DNA of 22,449 nucleotides from a virus: the IMG/VR virus record IMGVR_UViG_3300033146_002111, positions 1 to 22,449 of that record. One strand, written 5' to 3'. This document shows positions 5,004 to 15,466 of this stretch, piece by piece. Both the position numbers and the translations under genes were made by a program. The first letter of the stretch is position 1. Each line of letters opens with the position of its first letter. Below the pieces are notes generated by a model. It worked only from the letters and a program-made list of their open reading frames with translations. It did not search any database and was not told the DNA's origin.

Positions 5004-7331
5004 TTATTCACCATTTATTTCTATTGAATTTGTATTGATGTTAACTACAATGTTTCTTATAACACCCTGTACAATAATTATTATATTAACTGAAATAGTA
5101 TCTATACCAGTTCTAATTATTTCTATTTTCCTGTCACTAATATATTCATCTGATAATAATGGAGCTAAAATATCCTCGCAATCATTTTTAATATTAGTAA
5201 TTAAAAAATCACTATTTAATTCAAAAATATTTTTTCTTAATTTAAAAAATAATTCTTTTTTAATATAATTTAAAACTCTGCGAATATAAAATTTATCTGA
5301 ATAATCACCAATTCCTGCAGAGGTCATTACATCGAACAAATAATAATTGTTATTTTCTTCATTATATTTAATATTATTAATAGAATTATAAACTTGTTCT
5401 CTTAATTCATCATTATTATATTCAATTAAAAGTTTCTCGCAATTTAATATAGGTGGTGTTTTATATCCAGCAGGTGATTTACATCTTGAAATTTTATCTA
5501 TTTCTGTTAATATTCCGATTATATCGCCACTTAAAGGCAGCCATCTATATTTAGTGGCATAATTATCCTTTTGTAGTTTCATATTGTTATATAATATATT
5601 ATAACTTGATTGTTTATTAAAATATCTAGTTATACTTGATTTACCAAAATTTTCTATTAAATCCCTATGAGTATTCATTCCACTATCAAACGGTGTAATA
5701 ATACAACTTGAGTTCTTCATCATATCCGATAAAGTCGGCATTAAATTTAAGGATAAATATGAGTTACCGGAGGAAAATGTTTTTATTAATTCTATTGGCA
5801 TTAAATAATAATATGAAGAAATTGAGTTATTTAATAATTCTTTTGATAAATCATAAAATAAATCATAATCATTATAATGTGTATAGTCAGGTAGAGTACT
5901 TTCATTATCTGTAAATATTAAATCTAAAATACTATTATCATTTGTACTATATTCCATCATATTTATTGGTTCATTAATATTATCGGTAGTAAAATCATAA
6001 TTAAATTTGAAATAAACCAACGAAGAATTATTATTAACTATTTCTTCTGCAAAATTATTACTTTTATTTTCATATTTTTTATTTAAAATATATTTTTCTT
6101 TTATACTAAATTCATTGTTTACTCTTTTATAAATGAATAAAATAAATTTATTTTCAAAATCAATGTCTTCGTTTAGGATATTAAAATATGTATTTACTAT
6201 TCCTGTGTATGGGTTCTGCACCGCATCGTCGAATACTTTTCTGTATATATCATTTTTATATATCAATTTATATTCTGATTGTTTAGTATATTCAAACGCA
6301 TTGCTTGATATACTATATTTTTTTATAGAGTTTGTCTCGAAAAAATAATACTCCTCTGCATCTTGTGGTCCGTTAGTAGATAATGTAGTAGGATATAAAA
6401 AATTTATGTTTCCGTATTCACTTGAATAAATTACTAAATTATCTTTTAAGGTTATGGTAGTAAAACCACCAGATAGAACAACTGGTTCACTTGATAATAA
6501 ATTATATTTACCTTTAATTAATTTATTCCCACTTAGAATAATTTCCGAGCCAGCTCCAATATTATATTCACCAGGTATAATAATTTCAGTATGAGGTTCA
6601 CCATTAACCAATTTTGTTCTGATGGATGTTATTTTTTCCTTTTCAAAGTCAACAATTTGAATTTTGTATGCAGCTGAGGTGTTTTCAAATAATAAATTGC
6701 TTTTAGGTACAATCTTTTCGTTTTCTATTCTTGTATGTATAGCTTCTAGTTCCTCTGTATTACCTGTTGTCTCTGTATATAAAATATGTTCAATAATTAC
6801 ATTATCAACTTTTTCATTTGTAATAGGTAATTTATAATTCGTTTCATCTGAACATATAGAAAAAGCAACATCAGTTTCTTTTGTTACAAATTTATTAAAA
6901 ATTTTAAATTTTGTGTTTGAATCTAATCCTGTTTCAGAGGTTGCATCACCTAATGTCAATAAAGCCTTATCGTAATTATATAAACCGCTTGCAGAGGTTT
7001 GGTCTAGGCTTCCACTAGATAACTTATACCCATAATTTTTGGTTGCAAGATTGGCGGTTTCGGTTCTAGTATCTAAAACTCTAATCAAATCTATTGGTTC
7101 ACTATGATTATATTGAAAATAATTATAAATATTAAACCAATTTTTATAATTATTTTCATCTGGTTCGCCAAAAATATCCTTAAAATGGTCTTCATTATAT
7201 ATTGTTATTCTTTTATTCGCCCACCCTGTTTTAGCAGTTAACATTCCAAAAACACTAGCTTGTTTTTTAAGTTTTTTAGTTATTTCAGATGTAGTTTCAT
7301 AGGTTTTAATTCCAGGTAGATCAGTATACAT
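5004..7331 (-). CDS. Tail sheath protein paralogue, copy 2
   Basis: 775 residues, nearly the length of the other sheath (778) but clearly diverged. Shared landmarks are the N-terminal IFGEP turn with a Trp nine residues on (about 52-66), and the core signature YRWLPLSGDIIGILTEIDK near 594-612, matching the FRWIPNVGDITG segment of copy 1 at almost the same position. The C-terminal segment GVIRNIVVNINTN corresponds to the closing strand. The Gly-rich AGINRG segment of copy 1 is replaced here by SPAGYKTPP. It is the first gene of the virion module, with a late-type motif upstream and AAGGA before the ATG, and it is followed at once by the OB-fold gene. It may build a distinct part of the sheath (for example a baseplate-proximal ring) or be an alternative sheath. 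Confidence 0.8.
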   Translation of the reverse strand: MYTDLPGIKTYETTSEITKKLKKQASVFGMLTAKTGWANKRITIYNEDHFKDIFGEPDENNYKNWFNIYNYFQYNHSEPIDLIRVLDTRTETANLATKNYGYKLSSGSLDQTSASGLYNYDKALLTLGDATSETGLDSNTKFKIFNKFVTKETDVAFSICSDETNYKLPITNEKVDNVIIEHILYTETTGNTEELEAIHTRIENEKIVPKSNLLFENTSAAYKIQIVDFEKEKITSIRTKLVNGEPHTEIIIPGEYNIGAGSEIILSGNKLIKGKYNLLSSEPVVLSGGFTTITLKDNLVIYSSEYGNINFLYPTTLSTNGPQDAEEYYFFETNSIKKYSISSNAFEYTKQSEYKLIYKNDIYRKVFDDAVQNPYTGIVNTYFNILNEDIDFENKFILFIYKRVNNEFSIKEKYILNKKYENKSNNFAEEIVNNNSSLVYFKFNYDFTTDNINEPINMMEYSTNDNSILDLIFTDNESTLPDYTHYNDYDLFYDLSKELLNNSISSYYYLMPIELIKTFSSGNSYLSLNLMPTLSDMMKNSSCIITPFDSGMNTHRDLIENFGKSSITRYFNKQSSYNILYNNMKLQKDNYATKYRWLPLSGDIIGILTEIDKISRCKSPAGYKTPPILNCEKLLIEYNNDELREQVYNSINNIKYNEENNNYYLFDVMTSAGIGDYSDKFYIRRVLNYIKKELFFKLRKNIFELNSDFLITNIKNDCEDILAPLLSDEYISDRKIEIIRTGIDTISVNIIIIVQGVIRNIVVNINTNSIEINGE

Positions 7332-7408: not shown

Positions 7409-8962
7409 TTAATTTAATTTGTCTATAAAATCAATAATTTCTAAAAATTTTTTATAATATAATTCTTGGTTATTTATATTATGTGAATGTAAGGGTATCA
7501 TTGATAAAAATAAGGATGCTGTTATATAATGAATTACCAATAACTCATTTTTAGAATATCTATGTTCTAATTGATCTAAAAATATTTTTTTGATTTCTTC
7601 TTTTCCGTCATTATATATTTTATAATCACCTTTTTCTTTTATGTATAATTCTGAATCTATAAAATCATAGTCCCAAAGTACAGAGTGACATAATTTAGCA
7701 ACATCGTAATAATGACTACCAAATATTTGTCCTCTTGGATCAATCATTATTAATTTATTTGCAGGAATATCATAAAGTAAATTACTGAAACAAAAATCTC
7801 CGTGTAATAAACTATGATTATCACAACATCTGTTATTTATTATATCTATAAAAGAGTTCATAAAATTATTTATAATTTCTTTATCTACAACTAACTCTGC
7901 AGGAAAATCCTCTAATCTGTTATATGTTTTATCTATCATATTATATAACATATTATTAGGTCTACCGAATTTAGACATATCCTTTAGTAATGTAAAGCAT
8001 TTACTAAAAATTAAATTCCATAATTCCGGTGAATTATCAATATACAAAAATATATCTCTAAGTGAATTATGTTTTATTTTTTCCATTTTATAACTAACGT
8101 CTAGTCCTTTTGTATGTATATTAGTAGAAAAAATTCTTGGTGTATGCAATTTAATCGAATCGGGTAAATTCCTGTACCAATTAAATTCATCAATAATTTT
8201 ATCAGCTTTATTATGACTAGACTTTTTGATTGTACCATTATATTCAACTAACTCATTAAAACTCCTAGATTTTTTAATAGATTTATTTTCAAGATACTCA
8301 TTTAATGTACCAAAATCATCTAACTCTGTTTCTACATAATTTAATATATCGTTTTCAATTATTCTATTTAGTACGTAAGAAAATTGAAATTCGTTATTTA
8401 TTCTAACATCATTTTTGAATTGTTCAGTTAAATATTGAATCATTTTGTTTGTATCTTGGATTAAATATATGCCGGATACTGCATAATCTGTATCCGGCTT
8501 TTCTTTAGGTTTGTCAAATAATTTAGTAACCTCTTTTAAACCATCTACCTCTACCATACACCATCTGCTATAATCTTCTACTTCTTGAACTGATATTAAA
8601 TTCAAATCCATATTATAAGAATTAAAAAAATCTTCTTTTGGTAATATGTCACCTAAAAGTATCAACGTCGATTCATCTGTATAATCAATTCCTGTATATA
8701 TTGCATCCGATAAACCTAATTGTGTTTCTTGTTCAATTAAATTAATTTCAATTGGAAAAGTATACATATTAATAATATCAAATATTTTTTCACTTTGATG
8801 TTTAACTACTATATTTACCTCTGATACTTTTTGTTTTACTAACCATTCTATTTGGTGTATCAATAATGGTTTTTCTTTGTAAGGTAAAATTGCTTTTGGG
8901 TAGTTTTTACCAAGTTCTTTGAACCTTAACCCGCGCCCCGCAGCACATATTAATCCTTTCAT
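7409..8962 (-). CDS. Nucleotidyltransferase fused to choline-kinase-like phosphotransferase
   Basis: 517 residues, two enzymes in one chain. The N-terminal part (about 1-235) is a sugar/alcohol-phosphate nucleotidyltransferase: MKGLICAAGRGLRF is the nucleotide-binding loop and YPKAILPY follows at 21-28. The C-terminal part (about 255-517) has the kinase-like fold of aminoglycoside and choline kinases: HGD with Asn five residues on (H387, D389, N394, catalytic loop) and the Mg-binding DPRG (D408-G411). In Gram-negative phosphocholine pathways (Lic) the kinase and the cytidylyltransferase are separate proteins, so a fusion would couple alcohol phosphorylation to CDP activation. The substrate cannot be read from sequence. 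It is the last gene of the operon; its AAAAGGAG lies at the end of the HAD gene. The first domain might use a sugar phosphate rather than phosphocholine. Confidence 0.8.
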   Translation of the reverse strand: MKGLICAAGRGLRFKELGKNYPKAILPYKEKPLLIHQIEWLVKQKVSEVNIVVKHQSEKIFDIINMYTFPIEINLIEQETQLGLSDAIYTGIDYTDESTLILLGDILPKEDFFNSYNMDLNLISVQEVEDYSRWCMVEVDGLKEVTKLFDKPKEKPDTDYAVSGIYLIQDTNKMIQYLTEQFKNDVRINNEFQFSYVLNRIIENDILNYVETELDDFGTLNEYLENKSIKKSRSFNELVEYNGTIKKSSHNKADKIIDEFNWYRNLPDSIKLHTPRIFSTNIHTKGLDVSYKMEKIKHNSLRDIFLYIDNSPELWNLIFSKCFTLLKDMSKFGRPNNMLYNMIDKTYNRLEDFPAELVVDKEIINNFMNSFIDIINNRCCDNHSLLHGDFCFSNLLYDIPANKLIMIDPRGQIFGSHYYDVAKLCHSVLWDYDFIDSELYIKEKGDYKIYNDGKEEIKKIFLDQLEHRYSKNELLVIHYITASLFLSMIPLHSHNINNQELYYKKFLEIIDFIDKLN

Positions 8963-8966
8963 ATTT

Positions 8967-9314
8967 TTATACTCCTTTTAAATTTATAAAATCATCTGGT
9001 AATATACCTCTATCATCAATATAATAATGCGCTATTTTTTTCTGAAAGGATAAAGAATTATATAGTACTTTATTTGCATTTAACCAGTCCTCTATATGTT
9101 TTCGATATTTTTTATCTGCGAGGTTAGAATCTTCATTACAAGTAAGTTGTCCACGCGCAGTGACTATATCTATTACCCAGTCCTCTTTATATAATTTATT
9201 TAATTTTTCGATAAGTTTTTCATTTGGAATAAAACTAGAGAAGTTTCTATTGTCGGCATCATGTAGTGCTAGTGTGTTATCGAAGTCACAAATTATTCGT
9301 TTTATTTTACACAT
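8967..9314 (-). CDS. HAD-family phosphatase of the polysaccharide-cluster type
   Basis: 115 residues, a minimal HAD hydrolase without a cap domain. Motif I is DFDNT (D10 nucleophile, D12 acid/base), motif II is the Thr of VTARG (T52), a motif III Lys lies near 92-93, and motif IV is YYIDDRG (D100, D101) followed by a Pro-Asp-Asp-Phe ending. This compact type often sits in bacterial capsule and LPS clusters, where it removes phosphate from sugar or polyol phosphates. The start codon overlaps the last 8 bases of the octapeptide-repeat gene, and its stop lies within the ribosome binding site of the next gene, indicating tight coupling. The likely role is to dephosphorylate an intermediate of the pathway encoded around it; the substrate is unknown. 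Confidence 0.75.
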   Translation of the reverse strand: MCKIKRIICDFDNTLALHDADNRNFSSFIPNEKLIEKLNKLYKEDWVIDIVTARGQLTCNEDSNLADKKYRKHIEDWLNANKVLYNSLSFQKKIAHYYIDDRGILPDDFINLKGV

Positions 9315-9759
9315 TATGAATACCTTTTAATTTATTTAATTTAATTTTTAATCCTGTTAAGGGGTGAATTATTTCAAAAATATCTCTACGAATTATAACG
9401 CATTCATCGCCTAGTAAAAATTCACATGTATTCGCTACATTAAAAGTACATTCATTCCCTGTTATAAATCTACATGACCAACCAGTATTAAAAACACATT
9501 CGCTTCCTGTATGAAATGTACAATTATATGCAGTTTCAAATGTACACAGTTTACCAGTATTAAATGTACATTCCGGTCCTGTGATAAATGTACATTTATG
9601 TTCAGTGTTAAATGTTATACCTGATATATCTGTAAAATCTAAAACTAATTTACTTTCTCCTGTTGTAAATATTTTAGACTTCTTATTCCAGTGAAATTTA
9701 TCTAATGATAATGGTTCTCCGTTTAATAATACTCTTTGTTGAACTTCGTGTTTATCCAT
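9307..9759 (-). CDS. Cysteine octapeptide-repeat beta-solenoid protein
   Basis: 150 residues. Residues 48-119 are nine consecutive 8-residue repeats of the form x-(C/x)-T-F-x-T-G-x, and nine cysteines fall exactly every eight residues (56, 64, 72, 80, 88, 96, 104, 112, 120). Such strict periodicity predicts a narrow right-handed beta-solenoid with a ladder of stacked Cys and Phe, related in style to pentapeptide-repeat proteins. The flanks (1-47 and 121-150) are non-repetitive caps. No catalytic motif is seen. AAAAGGAGTAC precedes the ATG, and a strong promoter (9789-9817) lies directly upstream inside the end of the preceding gene, so this gene and the two after it can be transcribed separately. 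Its function is unknown; scaffold, DNA mimic or metal binding are all possible. Confidence 0.75.
   Translation of the reverse strand: MDKHEVQQRVLLNGEPLSLDKFHWNKKSKIFTTGESKLVLDFTDISGITFNTEHKCTFITGPECTFNTGKLCTFETAYNCTFHTGSECVFNTGWSCRFITGNECTFNVANTCEFLLGDECVIIRRDIFEIIHPLTGLKIKLNKLKGIHNV
9400..9618 (-). repeat. Tandem 24-bp coding repeat
   Basis: Nine degenerate 24-bp units encode the octapeptide ladder. The units share a TGTACATTTxxTACTGG-like pattern but differ at many third positions, so they are old repeats kept by selection on the protein rather than recent slippage. Confidence 0.7.
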
Positions 9760-9788
9760 GTTTAGTACTCCTTTTTTATTATATCTAT

Positions 9789-9817
9789 AATATAACCAAT
9801 TTAATTCATTTTGTCAA
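9789..9817 (-). promoter_or_regulatory. Sigma70-like promoter inside the glycan operon
   Basis: -35 TTGACA (9812-9817), a 17-base spacer ending in GGT, and -10 TATATT (9789-9794). The -35 lies within the last codons of the TagF-like gene. A symmetric ATTATAGATATAAT (9778-9791) covers the -10 and the start site and could act as an operator. It should drive the octapeptide-repeat, HAD and nucleotidyltransferase/kinase genes. Confidence 0.85.
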
Positions 9818-10829
9818 TAGTTTTTTTGATTAAATTTAGATAATATTTTATTATATCTTCTGTTTTATTTATTGTTAATAAGTCATCGTATAAATGAAAA
9901 CTTATTTTTTTTGATTTATCAAAATCTTTAATATTTACTATATCTGGAAAAATATCACTTTGATTTACTTTTCCTATACCATCATGTTTAGCATTTAAAA
10001 AACTATCAAATGTATAAACAGATTGTTCTTTATTATGTATATTGGACCGTAAAGCAATTTCTATAAACATTGAACTTGAACCTGAAACTAAATATTGACA
10101 CCTATCAGTAAAATCATATTTCCAAGAATCAGCAGGTAATAAAACAACCTCGCCAAATTTACTTAATTTTTTCCATTTATTAACTTTCATATATTTACCA
10201 ATTATTGGATGTCCTTTGATAAAAATAGTTTTGAATTTTATATCTTTTTCAGTAAATACTTTAGTTAACTGATTTATAAAATCTGTTTGACTACTTTTAC
10301 TTGTTGTTATAATTCCTAATGTATCGTATTCCATTTCTACATTAGGTTTTTTAAAAACGTCAATCATTGTTGGATGCGTTAATGTTGGAATATTATGTGG
10401 ATACTTAATAATATAATCATTCATTTGTTTTATGTTTCTCCAAACATCTAAATAAAAACCTATATTTTTATTCCTCTGAACTCCAGTAACCAAATCTTGG
10501 CCCATTCCATTTAGAGAATGGGGCATTTTAATCATATTTTTATATTTACACATATTTTGAATACTATTAAATTTGGACATTTGGTCTTGCCCATCATGTA
10601 TAGCTACACTATATTTAATTCCTATTTCTTTTGTGTGTACCTCATTACCATCTAAATCCCAAACTGATTGCAATTTTCCTTTTTTCGGACCTTTAATAGA
10701 TTTAATAGTATCGACAATATCATTTTTGTACATAAAGTAAACATCCCAACCTGACGCATCTATTATAGGTTTAAACATATCATATTGATAATGCCTAGAT
10801 TCTAAATACCAAACCGGTTTTAATTCCAT
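9801..10829 (-). CDS. TagF/TagB-like CDP-alcohol phosphotransferase (GT-B fold)
   Basis: 342 residues resembling the catalytic half of CDP-glycerol glycerophosphotransferases, which move a phospho-alcohol from a CDP carrier to a glycan. The supporting motifs are KGHP (205-208), matching the conserved Lys/Arg-x-His-Pro, and LVSGSSSMFIE (247-257), at the place of the Asp-Tyr-Ser-Ser nucleotide-binding segment. The usual Asp-Tyr is replaced by Ser-Gly, which may reflect another CDP substrate. There is no signal or membrane segment, so it should act in the cytosol. It overlaps the upstream gene by 10 bases, and its ribosome binding site (GAGGTT) lies within that gene. Next to two predicted cytidylyltransferases it is the natural transferase of the pathway. 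A plain glycosyltransferase of the same fold is the main alternative. Confidence 0.6.
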   Translation of the reverse strand: MELKPVWYLESRHYQYDMFKPIIDASGWDVYFMYKNDIVDTIKSIKGPKKGKLQSVWDLDGNEVHTKEIGIKYSVAIHDGQDQMSKFNSIQNMCKYKNMIKMPHSLNGMGQDLVTGVQRNKNIGFYLDVWRNIKQMNDYIIKYPHNIPTLTHPTMIDVFKKPNVEMEYDTLGIITTSKSSQTDFINQLTKVFTEKDIKFKTIFIKGHPIIGKYMKVNKWKKLSKFGEVVLLPADSWKYDFTDRCQYLVSGSSSMFIEIALRSNIHNKEQSVYTFDSFLNAKHDGIGKVNQSDIFPDIVNIKDFDKSKKISFHLYDDLLTINKTEDIIKYYLNLIKKTIDKMN

Positions 10830-12616
10830 TTCATAACCTCGATTTCTTTTAAAGTTTTTATTATAAATAAATTATCTTGTAAATCTCTAACTGATATTCT
10901 TACAAATTCACCATGTTCGAGTCCAATTTTACCTTTTAATACTTTGATGAATATATTATATTTTTCTAATAATATGTTTGCAAGTGATTCAACATTTATA
11001 TTAATCGCCTCACACATTATATAATTTGACTGAGATTTTCTAGGTGCTAATATTTTAGATTCTATTAAACCTTCGTATAAAACCTCTCTTGAATTTTTTA
11101 TTAGTTTACATGCCTCAGAATAATCTTTTTTGTACTTAGGAAATATTTGCATAAAATTTTCAGCAAAGGAATTGATATTCCATATAGGCATTTTAGATTT
11201 CATATTTTGTAATACTTCTGTATTACTTGTAACCATAATCCCTAACCCTAAACCTGGTACTCCATAACTTTTTGAAATATCCTTAATTAGTACTAAACCA
11301 GGGTACTTATCAATTATAGTTTGATTTAATAAACTTTCATTGCCCTCTGAAAAATCTATAAATGACTCATCTAATATTAATAATTTTCCTGTATTTTTAA
11401 AATCCATATAATCAAGTAATTCAATTACATCAGTTTTAGATGTTAATTGACCCGATGGATTGTCAGGGTTTATTAAAATTACATTATTATTCTTATCTGA
11501 AATATGTTGTAATATATTTAAATCGTAATTAGCACCCGCATTTTTATGAATCCTGTCATTTCCTATTGCTTCATAATATTCATTAAACGTAGGAAAAATT
11601 AAACCGAATGTTCCGTTTATCGAATGTTTTAATTGTTTGATTATTTCGGTTGCTCCATTTGTAACAAGTATTTGATCCGAGTCAATATTAATTATATCGG
11701 ACATTAACTCATTTTGTACATAACCGGTACTAGGATATTGAGTTAATAACATTTCATAATTTTGCTTCATTTCATTTAACATTTTTTCCTTAGGAAAGTA
11801 TGGGTTTACTAAATAACAAAAATCTAACATATTGGAGTGTCTCCAATATCCACCATAAGTTTTTTGTATTTTCTTTATTGGATGCTTAGCAAAAATAGAT
11901 TCTGCAATTTCTTTATCTTGAACATTATCTATTTCATACCATTTTTCTTTATCTAATATAAGAGCATTCATATTAGCGCCGGATAAACCATTTATTACTC
12001 TAAGAACTTCTTCGTAATATTCATTATTTCCATACGCTTTTATATATGCATCTAAAAAAGGAATATAAAACTGAGAACTAAATTCTTTAGAAAACTTGTA
12101 TATATTAATTGTTTTAAAATAGTTATTAATATTGTTAAAATTATATTGGGCTTTATTTACAAAATTTATAATTTCATCATTAATTATTTCAAGTACAGTT
12201 CCGTCCATAAAGGTTTCGTAAGGAGCAACTGTTGCAAGATTTGGTCTTTTATCTTTAATCAATTTACTTATTATTTCTGAATCATAAATTAAATCACTTT
12301 CTAATAATATAGTATCGTCTTTTTCTAATAAATGTTTAACGATATATAATGAATATATGTTATTAGTCTTATCATATATGTTATTCTCGTAGAAGTTAAC
12401 ATCTAACTCTTTGAAATTATCATTTATATATTGAGTTAGACTATCGGCTTTATATCCTACCACAATGTTAATGTTTTTGACTCCATTTTCTATTAATGAG
12501 TTTAACATTCTATCAATTAGTCTTTCATCATTAACCTTTAACATACATTTGGTTTGTTCTTCTGTATATTTTCCTAATCTTGAACCAATTCCAGCTGCTA
12601 AAATTATGGCTTGCAT
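10820..12616 (-). CDS. Cytidylyltransferase fused to PLP-dependent aminotransferase/decarboxylase
   Basis: 598 residues. Residues 1-245 match the LicC/PntC-type nucleotidyltransferases that activate phosphocholine, aminoethylphosphonate and similar compounds with CTP: LAAGIGSRL (6-14), TKCMLKVN (22-29), NNIYSLY (85-91), LLESDL (104-109) and WYEIDN (226-231). Residues 255-598 are a fold-type I PLP enzyme of the HisC/CobD group: NPDNPSG (383-389), LDESFIDF (415-422), the Schiff-base lysine K449 in SKSYGVPGLGLG, and the carboxylate-binding Arg in FVRIS (R573). PntC proteins fused to a transaminase are known; a CobD-like domain would instead decarboxylate a phospho-amino acid such as phosphoserine or phosphothreonine. 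The product may be a CDP-linked amino-alcohol or phosphonate. All key residues of both domains are intact. It starts after AGGAGTAAC, 20 bases past the preceding gene. Confidence 0.82.
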   Translation of the reverse strand: MQAIILAAGIGSRLGKYTEEQTKCMLKVNDERLIDRMLNSLIENGVKNINIVVGYKADSLTQYINDNFKELDVNFYENNIYDKTNNIYSLYIVKHLLEKDDTILLESDLIYDSEIISKLIKDKRPNLATVAPYETFMDGTVLEIINDEIINFVNKAQYNFNNINNYFKTINIYKFSKEFSSQFYIPFLDAYIKAYGNNEYYEEVLRVINGLSGANMNALILDKEKWYEIDNVQDKEIAESIFAKHPIKKIQKTYGGYWRHSNMLDFCYLVNPYFPKEKMLNEMKQNYEMLLTQYPSTGYVQNELMSDIINIDSDQILVTNGATEIIKQLKHSINGTFGLIFPTFNEYYEAIGNDRIHKNAGANYDLNILQHISDKNNNVILINPDNPSGQLTSKTDVIELLDYMDFKNTGKLLILDESFIDFSEGNESLLNQTIIDKYPGLVLIKDISKSYGVPGLGLGIMVTSNTEVLQNMKSKMPIWNINSFAENFMQIFPKYKKDYSEACKLIKNSREVLYEGLIESKILAPRKSQSNYIMCEAININVESLANILLEKYNIFIKVLKGKIGLEHGEFVRISVRDLQDNLFIIKTLKEIEVMKWN

Positions 12617-12635: not shown

Positions 12636-14045
12636 TTAAATTCTATATTCTGGTATAATTCTATTGATTTCTTTTTTAGCCATTTTAATCGGATTTTTTA
12701 TATACTCATCTATTTTAAATAGCTTTCTTAGTTTATTTATCAATTCTATTCGTTCATCGTCATGCTCATTAAAATAATCTATTTTTGTTTGAATATCTTC
12801 TGCAGATTTAACAGATAGTCTGTCATATATTTCTTTAGGGATTTGTAAATTATCTGGGTCGTACATATAATCAAAAAATGATAATGTATTCATATATGAG
12901 TTTAATACAGGTCTAAAATTTAAAGAGTTCTCTGGTGATACACATCTAAGTACTAAATTATATTTATATTTAGACATTTCATCTTGTATCATATCTGGTG
13001 TTAATATATCACCTAATAATTTATGTTTAGTTATATCTTCGTATGGTTTGGCGAATACTAATTTTGCTTTATCGTCAACTAGTTTTAATTGTTTTCCTTT
13101 AGCTTTTTTGAAAAAAATACCATTTATTTTCAACGGAATATGTATAGCTGATTTTTCATCTTTAAAATCATGCAAAAAATCATAATAACATTGTAACCTA
13201 GAGCCTTTTAACTGTAATATAGTACCTACAAAAAATAAATTTTTAGCTGGTTTAGGTTTTTCTACTTCAAAAATATCATTTAAAGAAGTAGAACCGAATT
13301 GTTTTTCATAAACTAAATGTTGTAATTGAGATATATCAAATTTAAGAAAATTCCGTGTGCCTCTATTATCGTCTGCAAAATAATAATTCTTAGCTGGTAT
13401 ATTATTCAATTTAAAATATGGTGTGTATATTGCAGGATCAATAGAGAAGGTAATTACATGTTTTTTAATTTTAGTTTTTAAAGAATTAAGTAATCTCATA
13501 AATCCATTTTGCTTTTTTAATCTAAATGCAATTGGTGAGACTGTTTTGTCCCAGTTATCAATAATATGTTGGTTTATATTGTTTATTTCCTTTAATATTT
13601 TAGTATTATTGCCTAAATAATCAAAAAATGAATTAGCTAAGTCGTGCAAATTTTTATTTGTATTAACTGAACAATAATTATGAAATGGTAATTGAAAGAA
13701 AAAATCACCGGAAACTATAATATATTCAATTTCTTTTATATCTGAAAATGATTTAATTAAACTATCGTCAATTATTTTTGTATTATGTTTTATATAATCT
13801 TTATTTTGCGCCTTTCTATCTAATCTATCACTAAATGCAGTGTTAAAAACATATAAGTTTTTAACCTCTGATTTTTGTACAGTAGATACATATATAATAT
13901 TAAATTGAGTTTCTAATAATTTTGCCAGGATTCGACCTGTACCAAATATAGAAGAGTATTTAGTTACCTCTCCTTGTTCCATTACTATAATATTTTTTTT
14001 ATCTGGGTTTAGATTTAATTTAACTTTTGTAAAAATTTCACTCAT
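12636..14045 (-). CDS. GT-B glycosyltransferase, possibly BGT-like DNA glycosyltransferase
   Basis: 469 residues with two Rossmann-like halves. A hinge-type motif LFFVGTILQLKGSRL (about 270-285) begins the C-terminal half, where T4 beta-glucosyltransferase (BGT) has IYGGSFRSGQRESK. Later, TPDMIQDEMSKYKYNLVLR and SLNFRPVLNSYMNTLSFF match the positions of the BGT segments that hold UDP-glucose (with LRVWE in BGT). The similarity is weak and by eye, so the DNA target is inferred mainly from the neighbouring AGT homologue. It has AAAAGGAG before the ATG and starts 12 bases after the AGT-like gene, so the two glycosyltransferases are co-expressed. It has no membrane segment and should act in the cytosol. 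It could also be an ordinary glycan glycosyltransferase. Confidence 0.6.
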   Translation of the reverse strand: MSEIFTKVKLNLNPDKKNIIVMEQGEVTKYSSIFGTGRILAKLLETQFNIIYVSTVQKSEVKNLYVFNTAFSDRLDRKAQNKDYIKHNTKIIDDSLIKSFSDIKEIEYIIVSGDFFFQLPFHNYCSVNTNKNLHDLANSFFDYLGNNTKILKEINNINQHIIDNWDKTVSPIAFRLKKQNGFMRLLNSLKTKIKKHVITFSIDPAIYTPYFKLNNIPAKNYYFADDNRGTRNFLKFDISQLQHLVYEKQFGSTSLNDIFEVEKPKPAKNLFFVGTILQLKGSRLQCYYDFLHDFKDEKSAIHIPLKINGIFFKKAKGKQLKLVDDKAKLVFAKPYEDITKHKLLGDILTPDMIQDEMSKYKYNLVLRCVSPENSLNFRPVLNSYMNTLSFFDYMYDPDNLQIPKEIYDRLSVKSAEDIQTKIDYFNEHDDERIELINKLRKLFKIDEYIKNPIKMAKKEINRIIPEYRI

Positions 14046-14057
14046 TTTTTACTCCTT

Positions 14058-15422
14058 TTATAATTCATAAAAATTTTTTATTTCTGAATAAGGTGCTTTA
14101 TTCAATTGTTTTCCGTTCCATTTTAGTTTATTTATTGTTTCACTAAAAGAAAATTGTAAGTCTTTTGATATTTGAACGGGTTTTTTATTCATTCGTTTTA
14201 AAAATTCTTTAGCGTTTATTTTTATGTTACCTTTTCCTATATCTAAAATTCGTTGGTAATATTTTTCTATAATTATATCTGCATCGTAATTTCTTCTAAT
14301 TACTTCTGTACTTACCTTATTATATTTGTTCCACTCCTCTTCATTTTTAGAAACTTCTATTAATTTATTTAAACCCTCTTCTAATTTATTTGCATTTATA
14401 TAAATTGCTGAGTATGGAATATCAAAAAATGATCTGCCTGAAATATCAAAATTATTCTTAGCCCAATGTTCATCAAATACTGGTACTGTAAGATATGCAG
14501 ATTCCATCATACTATATTCCATTCTGTTGCCATAATTATCTTTTTCTTTTTCTGATAAATGATAAAAATTAGACGAGAATTTAAAATCTGCCATATATTT
14601 CATTCCAACTTCTCTAAAATATGGTTTGCGTACATTAGTCATCATAGGTTTAAAATCTGGGTTTTTTTTATTTATGTAATTTACTAATGGATGTTGTAGA
14701 AATAAGAAATAAGCACTTGGTGATTTTTCTATTCCTAACATTTCAGTAGTAAAATCTGAATTTTCCTTTTTATTTAAAATCTCTTGAAATTTAACAAGTC
14801 TGTCCGGTGCCTTTAGCGAACTACTACGACCTAGATATAAAATTCCATTAGTTTTTTCAGAAAATGGAATACTAGATGAGTATAGGTCCAACTCGTTCAA
14901 GTCTAGTGGTAGAGTATAATCTATAAACCTATCTTGCTCAATATATTCAGGTAAATATTGTTTTATGTCTTTAGCAAAATGTCCTTTTGTATCAAATGTA
15001 ATAACTACATCTGAACTTAGGAAATATAAAGGTAAATTTGGTATTCTTGTATAAATCGGTTTTTTGATTTCATGCATCATATTAACTTTTATAGGCTTAT
15101 TAATAGATGTGTTCCAAAACTTAATTACTTTATATAAAAAATCCAATTCGCATGTTTTATCTGGGTAAGAGTTTAATATTACTACATCATATTCGTTTAT
15201 TCTTTGGATAAAATCTTTGTTTACTAAATCAGTAATTTCTACATTTTCATATAAACCTTTAAAATTCGCTGCTCTTACATAAGATTTACCTATATTCAAA
15301 GAAATAATATCGCATTCGTGATTATTTTTCTCTAACCATGTCTTATGTTGCATAGAAAAAATCGTGACTCCCGTGCCATCTATTGATTTTAACATAAGAA
15401 TTGCTACTTTTAATTTTTTCAT
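14058..15422 (-). CDS. T4 AGT-like (GT72) DNA glycosyltransferase
   Basis: 454 residues from the ATG at 15422. This ATG is preceded by AAAGGTG at proper spacing; a GTG nine bases earlier lies on the ribosome binding site and is less likely. Several segments align with T4 alpha-glucosyltransferase: GTGVTIFSMQHKTWLEKNNHE (16-36, T4 has GCGVTKFSLEQRDWFIKNGHE), VVILNSYP (80-87), LYLGRSSSLK (195-204, T4 WIGRTTTWK), MLGIEKSPSA (228-237, T4 MEGLERSPA), and RMEYSMMESAYLTVPVF (300-316, T4 SLEYTHLELGACGTIPVF) with the paired Glu residues E302 and E307. AGT transfers glucose from UDP-glucose to hydroxymethylcytosine in DNA. The match over the whole length makes a DNA sugar transferase likely, but sugar and base are not readable. 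It is first in the operon, behind a strong sigma70-like promoter. About 50 extra C-terminal residues follow the family core. Confidence 0.82.
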   Translation of the reverse strand: MKKLKVAILMLKSIDGTGVTIFSMQHKTWLEKNNHECDIISLNIGKSYVRAANFKGLYENVEITDLVNKDFIQRINEYDVVILNSYPDKTCELDFLYKVIKFWNTSINKPIKVNMMHEIKKPIYTRIPNLPLYFLSSDVVITFDTKGHFAKDIKQYLPEYIEQDRFIDYTLPLDLNELDLYSSSIPFSEKTNGILYLGRSSSLKAPDRLVKFQEILNKKENSDFTTEMLGIEKSPSAYFLFLQHPLVNYINKKNPDFKPMMTNVRKPYFREVGMKYMADFKFSSNFYHLSEKEKDNYGNRMEYSMMESAYLTVPVFDEHWAKNNFDISGRSFFDIPYSAIYINANKLEEGLNKLIEVSKNEEEWNKYNKVSTEVIRRNYDADIIIEKYYQRILDIGKGNIKINAKEFLKRMNKKPVQISKDLQFSFSETINKLKWNGKQLNKAPYSEIKNFYEL

Positions 15423-15466
15423 TTTTAACACCTTTTTTAATATTGATTTTATTATCTTATGATATA

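Follow-up and report, generated by a model that had tools for sequence, protein, structure and literature searches.

A phage-borne cytidylyltransferase–PLP enzyme fusion from a bacterial family that probably makes CDP-ethanolamine

The window, the whole 22,449-nucleotide stretch of DNA in an IMG/VR virus record, is phage DNA. Its markers include a tail sheath (phrog_23), a primase (phrog_47) and a T4-AGT-like glucosyltransferase (phrog_2888); the match of Phage_sheath_1C (Pfam) to the sheath protein was below the cut-off. Proteins of 778 and 775 residues, both large and tail-sheath-like, are encoded close together, at 335-2671 and 5004-7331, and no close phage relatives of the window were recovered in DNA or single-protein scans. 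The fusion gene described here (10820..12616, minus strand) lies within a run of minus-strand genes extending from 15431 to 7409, whose members overlap slightly or lie no more than 41 bp apart.

This run opens with the AGT-like glucosyltransferase gene (14058..15431; phrog_2888, 1.5e-58; 33% to Bacillus phage G gp306), followed by a gene for a 469-residue protein (12636..14045) that had no matches in family and homology searches and may possibly be a glycosyltransferase. After the fusion comes a gene for a candidate phosphotransferase with K-HP and SSS-E motifs (9801..10829), which overlaps the stop of the fusion by 10 bp. Its product showed a weak and only suggestive likeness to CDP-glycerol glycerophosphotransferases (hhalign, E 0.026, one template). 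The sole homologue in the phage collection came from Vibrio phage Va2, a profile search of IMG/VR retrieved no relatives, and AlphaFold2 prediction of the protein alone from a single sequence gave no usable model (pLDDT 35). The run continues with a Cys-rich repetitive protein (9307..9759), to which no Pfam or NCBIfam families could be assigned and whose C-x-F-x-T-G repeats possibly form a small beta-helix, and with an EcbF/BcbF-like HAD phosphatase identified by family matches (8967..9314). It ends with a second nucleotidyltransferase (7409..8962), the C-terminal half of which had no Pfam hit and was read as kinase-like. The HAD and nucleotidyltransferase pair (7409-9314) recurs in Enterococcus phage 9183 (L107, 7645-9620), where it adjoins thymidylate synthase and dUTPase genes; the DLP6 paper gave no answer on whether phages with a homologue of the 7409-8962 gene modify their DNA. 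Neither LicD nor a serine kinase was present among the window proteins scanned, and a scan against Pfam gave no match for PEP mutase.

The interval 10820..12616 is filled by one minus-strand open reading frame of 598 codons, the only long one there, the plus strand being riddled with stops. Residues 3-133 matched NTP_transferase and NTP_transf_3 and residues 309-576 matched Aminotran_1_2, all above the Pfam cut-offs, confirming that the fusion proposed in an earlier note on this DNA is real. The N-terminal domain (residues 1 to about 245; 11881..12616, minus strand) is a LicC/PntC-like cytidylyltransferase, and the C-terminal domain (from about residue 255 to 596 or 597; 10826..11854 for residues 255-597, minus strand) is a CobD/SMUL_1544-like PLP domain. 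AlphaFold2 predicted two confident domains (pLDDT 90.1, pTM 0.83), and no viral protein in BFVD matched both of them well. The motifs that the note had quoted were all present (LAAGIGSR, 6-13; LLESDL, 104-109; WYEIDN, 226-231; NPDNPSG, 383-389; K449 and R573). Its statement that both active sites look intact held for the cytidylyltransferase half, which retains its invariant active-site residues, but not for the PLP half, which keeps N386, D416, K449 and R573 and has three changes in the PLP-phosphate cup (G319T, S446D and R457G).

To place the PLP domain, 44 such domains were compared in a maximum-likelihood tree. A strongly supported clade (100/99) contained the fusions, an annotated serine-O-phosphate decarboxylase of Sulfurospirillum, four stand-alone phage enzymes, and proteins of Spirosoma and rhizobia that carry a HisC annotation. 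The window domain fell inside the main fusion clade (100/99), although the tree did not settle its exact place within it, and CobD, then HisC (99/92), branched outside. The best solved match to the domain, both by phmmer and by Foldseek, was SMUL_1544 (6oux). The Aminotran_1_2 match and this tree position indicated a class I/II rather than a class V enzyme, so that the contrast drawn previously with the class V AEP transaminase of PntC-AEPT stands. The PLP-domain phylogeny proposed in the note also excluded the outcome that would have told against it, a place among histidine-pathway transaminases only. Separately, four viral contigs (L093-L096; match at about 9001-9999) encode a stand-alone SMUL_1544-like PLP enzyme between AMP-ligase-like and sugar-dehydrogenase-like genes, with phage replication genes nearby in the two that were read (L093 and L096).

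A profile scan revealed at least 561 stretches in genome contigs that encode relatives of the fusion. The best 80 were full-length and shared 43-51% identity across almost their entire length (residues 1-590), and full-length homologues also occur in plasmid and chromosome records, among them one of Fusobacterium vincentii with 45% identity. Collinear homology over both domains, together with the shared clade, places the window protein in this bacterial family. Three other viral contigs encode the fusion, namely L090 (49%), L091 (44%) and L092 (33%); open reading frames for DNA polymerase and clamp-like proteins were read in L090 and for RecA- and SSB-like proteins in L091. Since L090 and L091 occupy different supported parts of the tree, tailed phages have taken up the fusion more than once. 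CobD/HisC hits also came from "phage" records of Listeria, Acinetobacter and Salmonella, which were set aside because they appear to be host DNA. The contig is indeed from a phage, but fusions of this type are widespread in bacteria and no peculiarity of phages, and the novelty lies mostly in their large, unnamed family, which is annotated only as "aminotransferase class I/II". A literature search, which did not cover subscription journals, found no description of a bifunctional phosphoserine decarboxylase/cytidylyltransferase.

The gene neighbourhoods of the fusion were counted in the 80 best-scoring of the at least 561 loci, many of them from related Bacteroidales. LicD was encoded in 48 of these 80 loci. 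Twelve fusion-bearing genomes (1.7-5.6 Mb) held just 13 LicD matches in all, so this linkage is far above chance. Octopine-dehydrogenase-like proteins occurred in 36 loci and OCD/SbnB-like reductases in 19, and the two were found together in a single locus against about 8.6 expected if they were independent; such near-exclusive occurrence would be expected if both kinds act on the same free amine. In addition, two CDP-glycerol-glycerophosphotransferase-like clusters were present in 12 and 5 loci and a methyltransferase in 4, and 71 of the 80 contained one or more of six partner families. A CDP-alcohol phosphatidyltransferase (PF01066) lay near the fusion in two loci (L010 and L007).

Serine-kinase-like genes adjoined the fusion in two loci in all. 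In Fusobacterium (L003:10820-11869), the gene directly downstream was the only DUF1015 match in the record, and we take this protein to have a kinase role. In Providencia rettgeri (L021:8810-9199), the gene directly downstream resembled free serine kinases (PDB 5x0b, E 2e-16; SerK NF053625, 75.7 bits; SbnI, 41.4 bits), with scores below the NCBIfam cut-offs. N-(1-carboxyethyl)ethanolamine phosphate is known from a Proteus O-antigen, although our literature search found no paper on it. In vitro, CDP-ethanolamine serves a LicD-family enzyme as donor of phosphoethanolamine (PMC11982090). Taken together, LicD, the reductases, the methyltransferase, the Providencia serine kinase and the Fusobacterium DUF1015 gene suggest a path from serine through phosphoserine, phosphoethanolamine and CDP-ethanolamine to LicD transfer, in which N-alkylation or N-methylation would be optional.

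The acceptor site of the cytidylyltransferase domain was compared with its nearest solved relatives, LicC (1jyk; the best solved match, E 3e-24 with the family profile) and Tde-PntC. G9, G11, R13, K23, E106, D108, K168, E202, E228 and D230 are retained in the phage copy and were invariant in 83 full-length relatives. In Tde-PntC, Glu104 and Glu196 are reported to lie where they can touch the primary amine of AEP; in LicC, which acts on choline, Asp105 and Asp192 occupy these positions (PMC6697681). E106 aligns with Tde-PntC Glu104, and E202 aligns with LicC Asp192, which PMC6697681 equates with Tde-PntC Glu196, although a direct HMM alignment to Tde-PntC put Glu196 one residue off E202. As both positions are Glu, not Asp, in 83 of 83 relatives, the residues suit an acceptor with a primary amine, for instance phosphoethanolamine, better than phosphocholine; the Asp pair of the LicC choline site (Asp105 and Asp192) is accordingly absent.

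From the domain identity, family membership, gene linkage and residue conservation described above, we infer substrates, a reaction order and an acceptor glycan as the best explanation: the fusion is probably a phage-borne member of a bifunctional family that makes CDP-ethanolamine from phosphoserine by way of phosphoethanolamine for glycan decoration. In the family, the PLP domain would most likely decarboxylate O-phospho-L-serine to phosphoethanolamine, which the N-terminal domain would convert with CTP to CDP-ethanolamine, releasing pyrophosphate. Ethanolamine phosphate would then be placed on a glycan by a phosphotransferase, LicD-type or other, often after N-methylation or N-carboxyalkylation. 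The phage copy, whose gene stands among closely packed genes for sugar handling, may do the same job for a phage-directed glycan, drawing on host phosphoserine or phosphoethanolamine, or may be active solely as a cytidylyltransferase for phosphoethanolamine. CDP-ethanolamine, one of several products suggested earlier, is thus favoured by the SMUL_1544 clade, the LicD and serine-kinase neighbours and the acceptor-site Glu residues; as for the suggestion that the PLP domain decarboxylates or transaminates its substrate, decarboxylation of phosphoserine is the better supported, and transamination less so.

The decarboxylase step is doubtful in the phage copy itself, as judged from its sequence, because the PLP-phosphate cup has changed. 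The phage protein departs from 1 of 50 near-invariant columns in the cytidylyltransferase half and from 4 of 55 in the PLP half, and three of these four (G319T, S446D and R457G) are at the PLP-phosphate site; they are also among the six columns at which it differs from at least 95% agreement among relatives. Positions 446 and 457 were invariant in 83 of 83 full-length relatives, none of which has S446D or R457G, and position 319 is Gly in 81 of them and Thr here. The two other closely related phage copies keep S446 and R457. Relative to K449, positions 446 (K-3) and 457 (K+8) presumably match Ser255 and Arg266 in aspartate aminotransferase, residues that bind the phosphate of PLP. Codon 457 (GGG) differs from an Arg codon by a single base, but no serine codon can become codon 446 (GAT) with fewer than two base changes, and simple error in sequencing is therefore not a ready explanation for both changes.

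Therefore, it is quite possible, if somewhat short of an even chance, that the phage copy has lost its PLP chemistry, that only the cytidylyltransferase works, on host phosphoethanolamine or similar, and that the PLP domain is structural. The cup changes and the well-kept cytidylyltransferase half speak for such a loss. On the other hand, the Schiff-base lysine K449 is kept, as are D416, N386 and R573, the domain is full length, free of stops and confidently predicted to fold, and the changes were read from one contig of unknown read depth.

With CDP-ethanolamine as the preferred product, the phage might hang ethanolamine phosphate on a phage-made sugar. Glucosylated DNA comes into consideration as acceptor because the AGT-like gene opens the gene run of the fusion, but we regard this whole scheme as unlikely. 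To our knowledge, no DNA or virion decoration of a zwitterionic, ethanolamine-phosphate kind has been described.

A phosphonate role, in which phosphonoalanine or phosphonoacetaldehyde is handled and CMP-aminoethylphosphonate is made as by PntC-AEPT, was also considered. PntC-AEPT was the top full-length structural match in Foldseek, and E106 and E202 would fit a primary-amine phosphonate equally well. PEP mutase is encoded near two fusion loci (L033 and L064, with Ppd-like genes) and near a split version of the fusion, found close to aepX in Rhizobium sp. 007; the third protein with a motif hit (L063) resembles LicD instead. Furthermore, Vibrio phage Va2, which has the homologue of the 9801-10829 gene, encodes PEP mutase and a TPP enzyme. 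These three genes (L109, 6838-7938, 11639-12943 and 17645-18703) may belong to a phage phosphonate pathway of Va2. However, PEP mutase near just 2 of the 80 best loci is too rare for a general phosphonate pathway, the PLP domain is not class V, and the serine kinase beside the Providencia fusion points to phosphoserine. We therefore consider this role decidedly unlikely for the phage protein, and aminoethylphosphonate, a substrate named in the note, unlikely for the family in general, although some members (L033, L064 and the Rhizobium sp. 007 split version) may use phosphonates.

It is similarly improbable that the PLP domain decarboxylates phosphothreonine, which would lead to CDP-1-amino-2-propanol. 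CobD (TIGR01140) was its best NCBIfam hit, but the score of 142.5 bits is far below the cut-off of 290.55, CobD branches outside the clade of SMUL_1544 and the fusions, and a serine kinase, not a threonine kinase, adjoins the Providencia fusion. A true HisC-like transaminase coupled to nucleotide activation is the least probable alternative: HisC models matched (TIGR01141, 108.6 bits against a cut-off of 276.55) and the fold is common to the whole superfamily, but HisC falls outside the clade, and the fusions have DESF where the two HisC sequences have DEAY. Cut-offs and tree together thus led us to reject HisC and CobD as the identity of the domain.

If the phosphoserine to CDP-ethanolamine route is correct, a common gene annotated "aminotransferase class I/II" gains a testable job as a one-protein route to surface-glycan decoration, and its repeated uptake suggests a benefit of zwitterionic glycan decoration to tailed phages.

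Several known systems resemble parts of this arrangement. SMUL_1544, the L-serine-O-phosphate decarboxylase for norcobamide (PDB 6oux), shares a clade with the fusion PLP domain at 26-27% identity; unlike the fusion, it is a stand-alone enzyme in a cobamide operon, and it keeps the Arg and Ser of the PLP-phosphate cup, both of which are replaced in the phage copy. The CTP:phosphocholine cytidylyltransferase LicC (PDB 1jyk) has LicD partners in bacteria, as do the fusion loci, but has Asp at the two acceptor-site positions and no PLP domain. PntC-AEPT of Treponema denticola (Tde1415; PDB 6pd1/6pd2) likewise joins an N-terminal LicC-type cytidylyltransferase to a C-terminal PLP enzyme and shares the Glu at the primary-amine position, whereas the PLP half of PntC-AEPT is an AEP transaminase of class V, and phosphonate genes are seldom near the fusion described here. 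Further counterparts are the bacterial "aminotransferase class I/II-fold" fusions of Providencia, Fusobacterium, Bacteroidales, Treponema and Campylobacterales, full-length homologues that differ from the phage copy in lying mostly in surface-glycan loci and in keeping S446 and R457 in the PLP cup.
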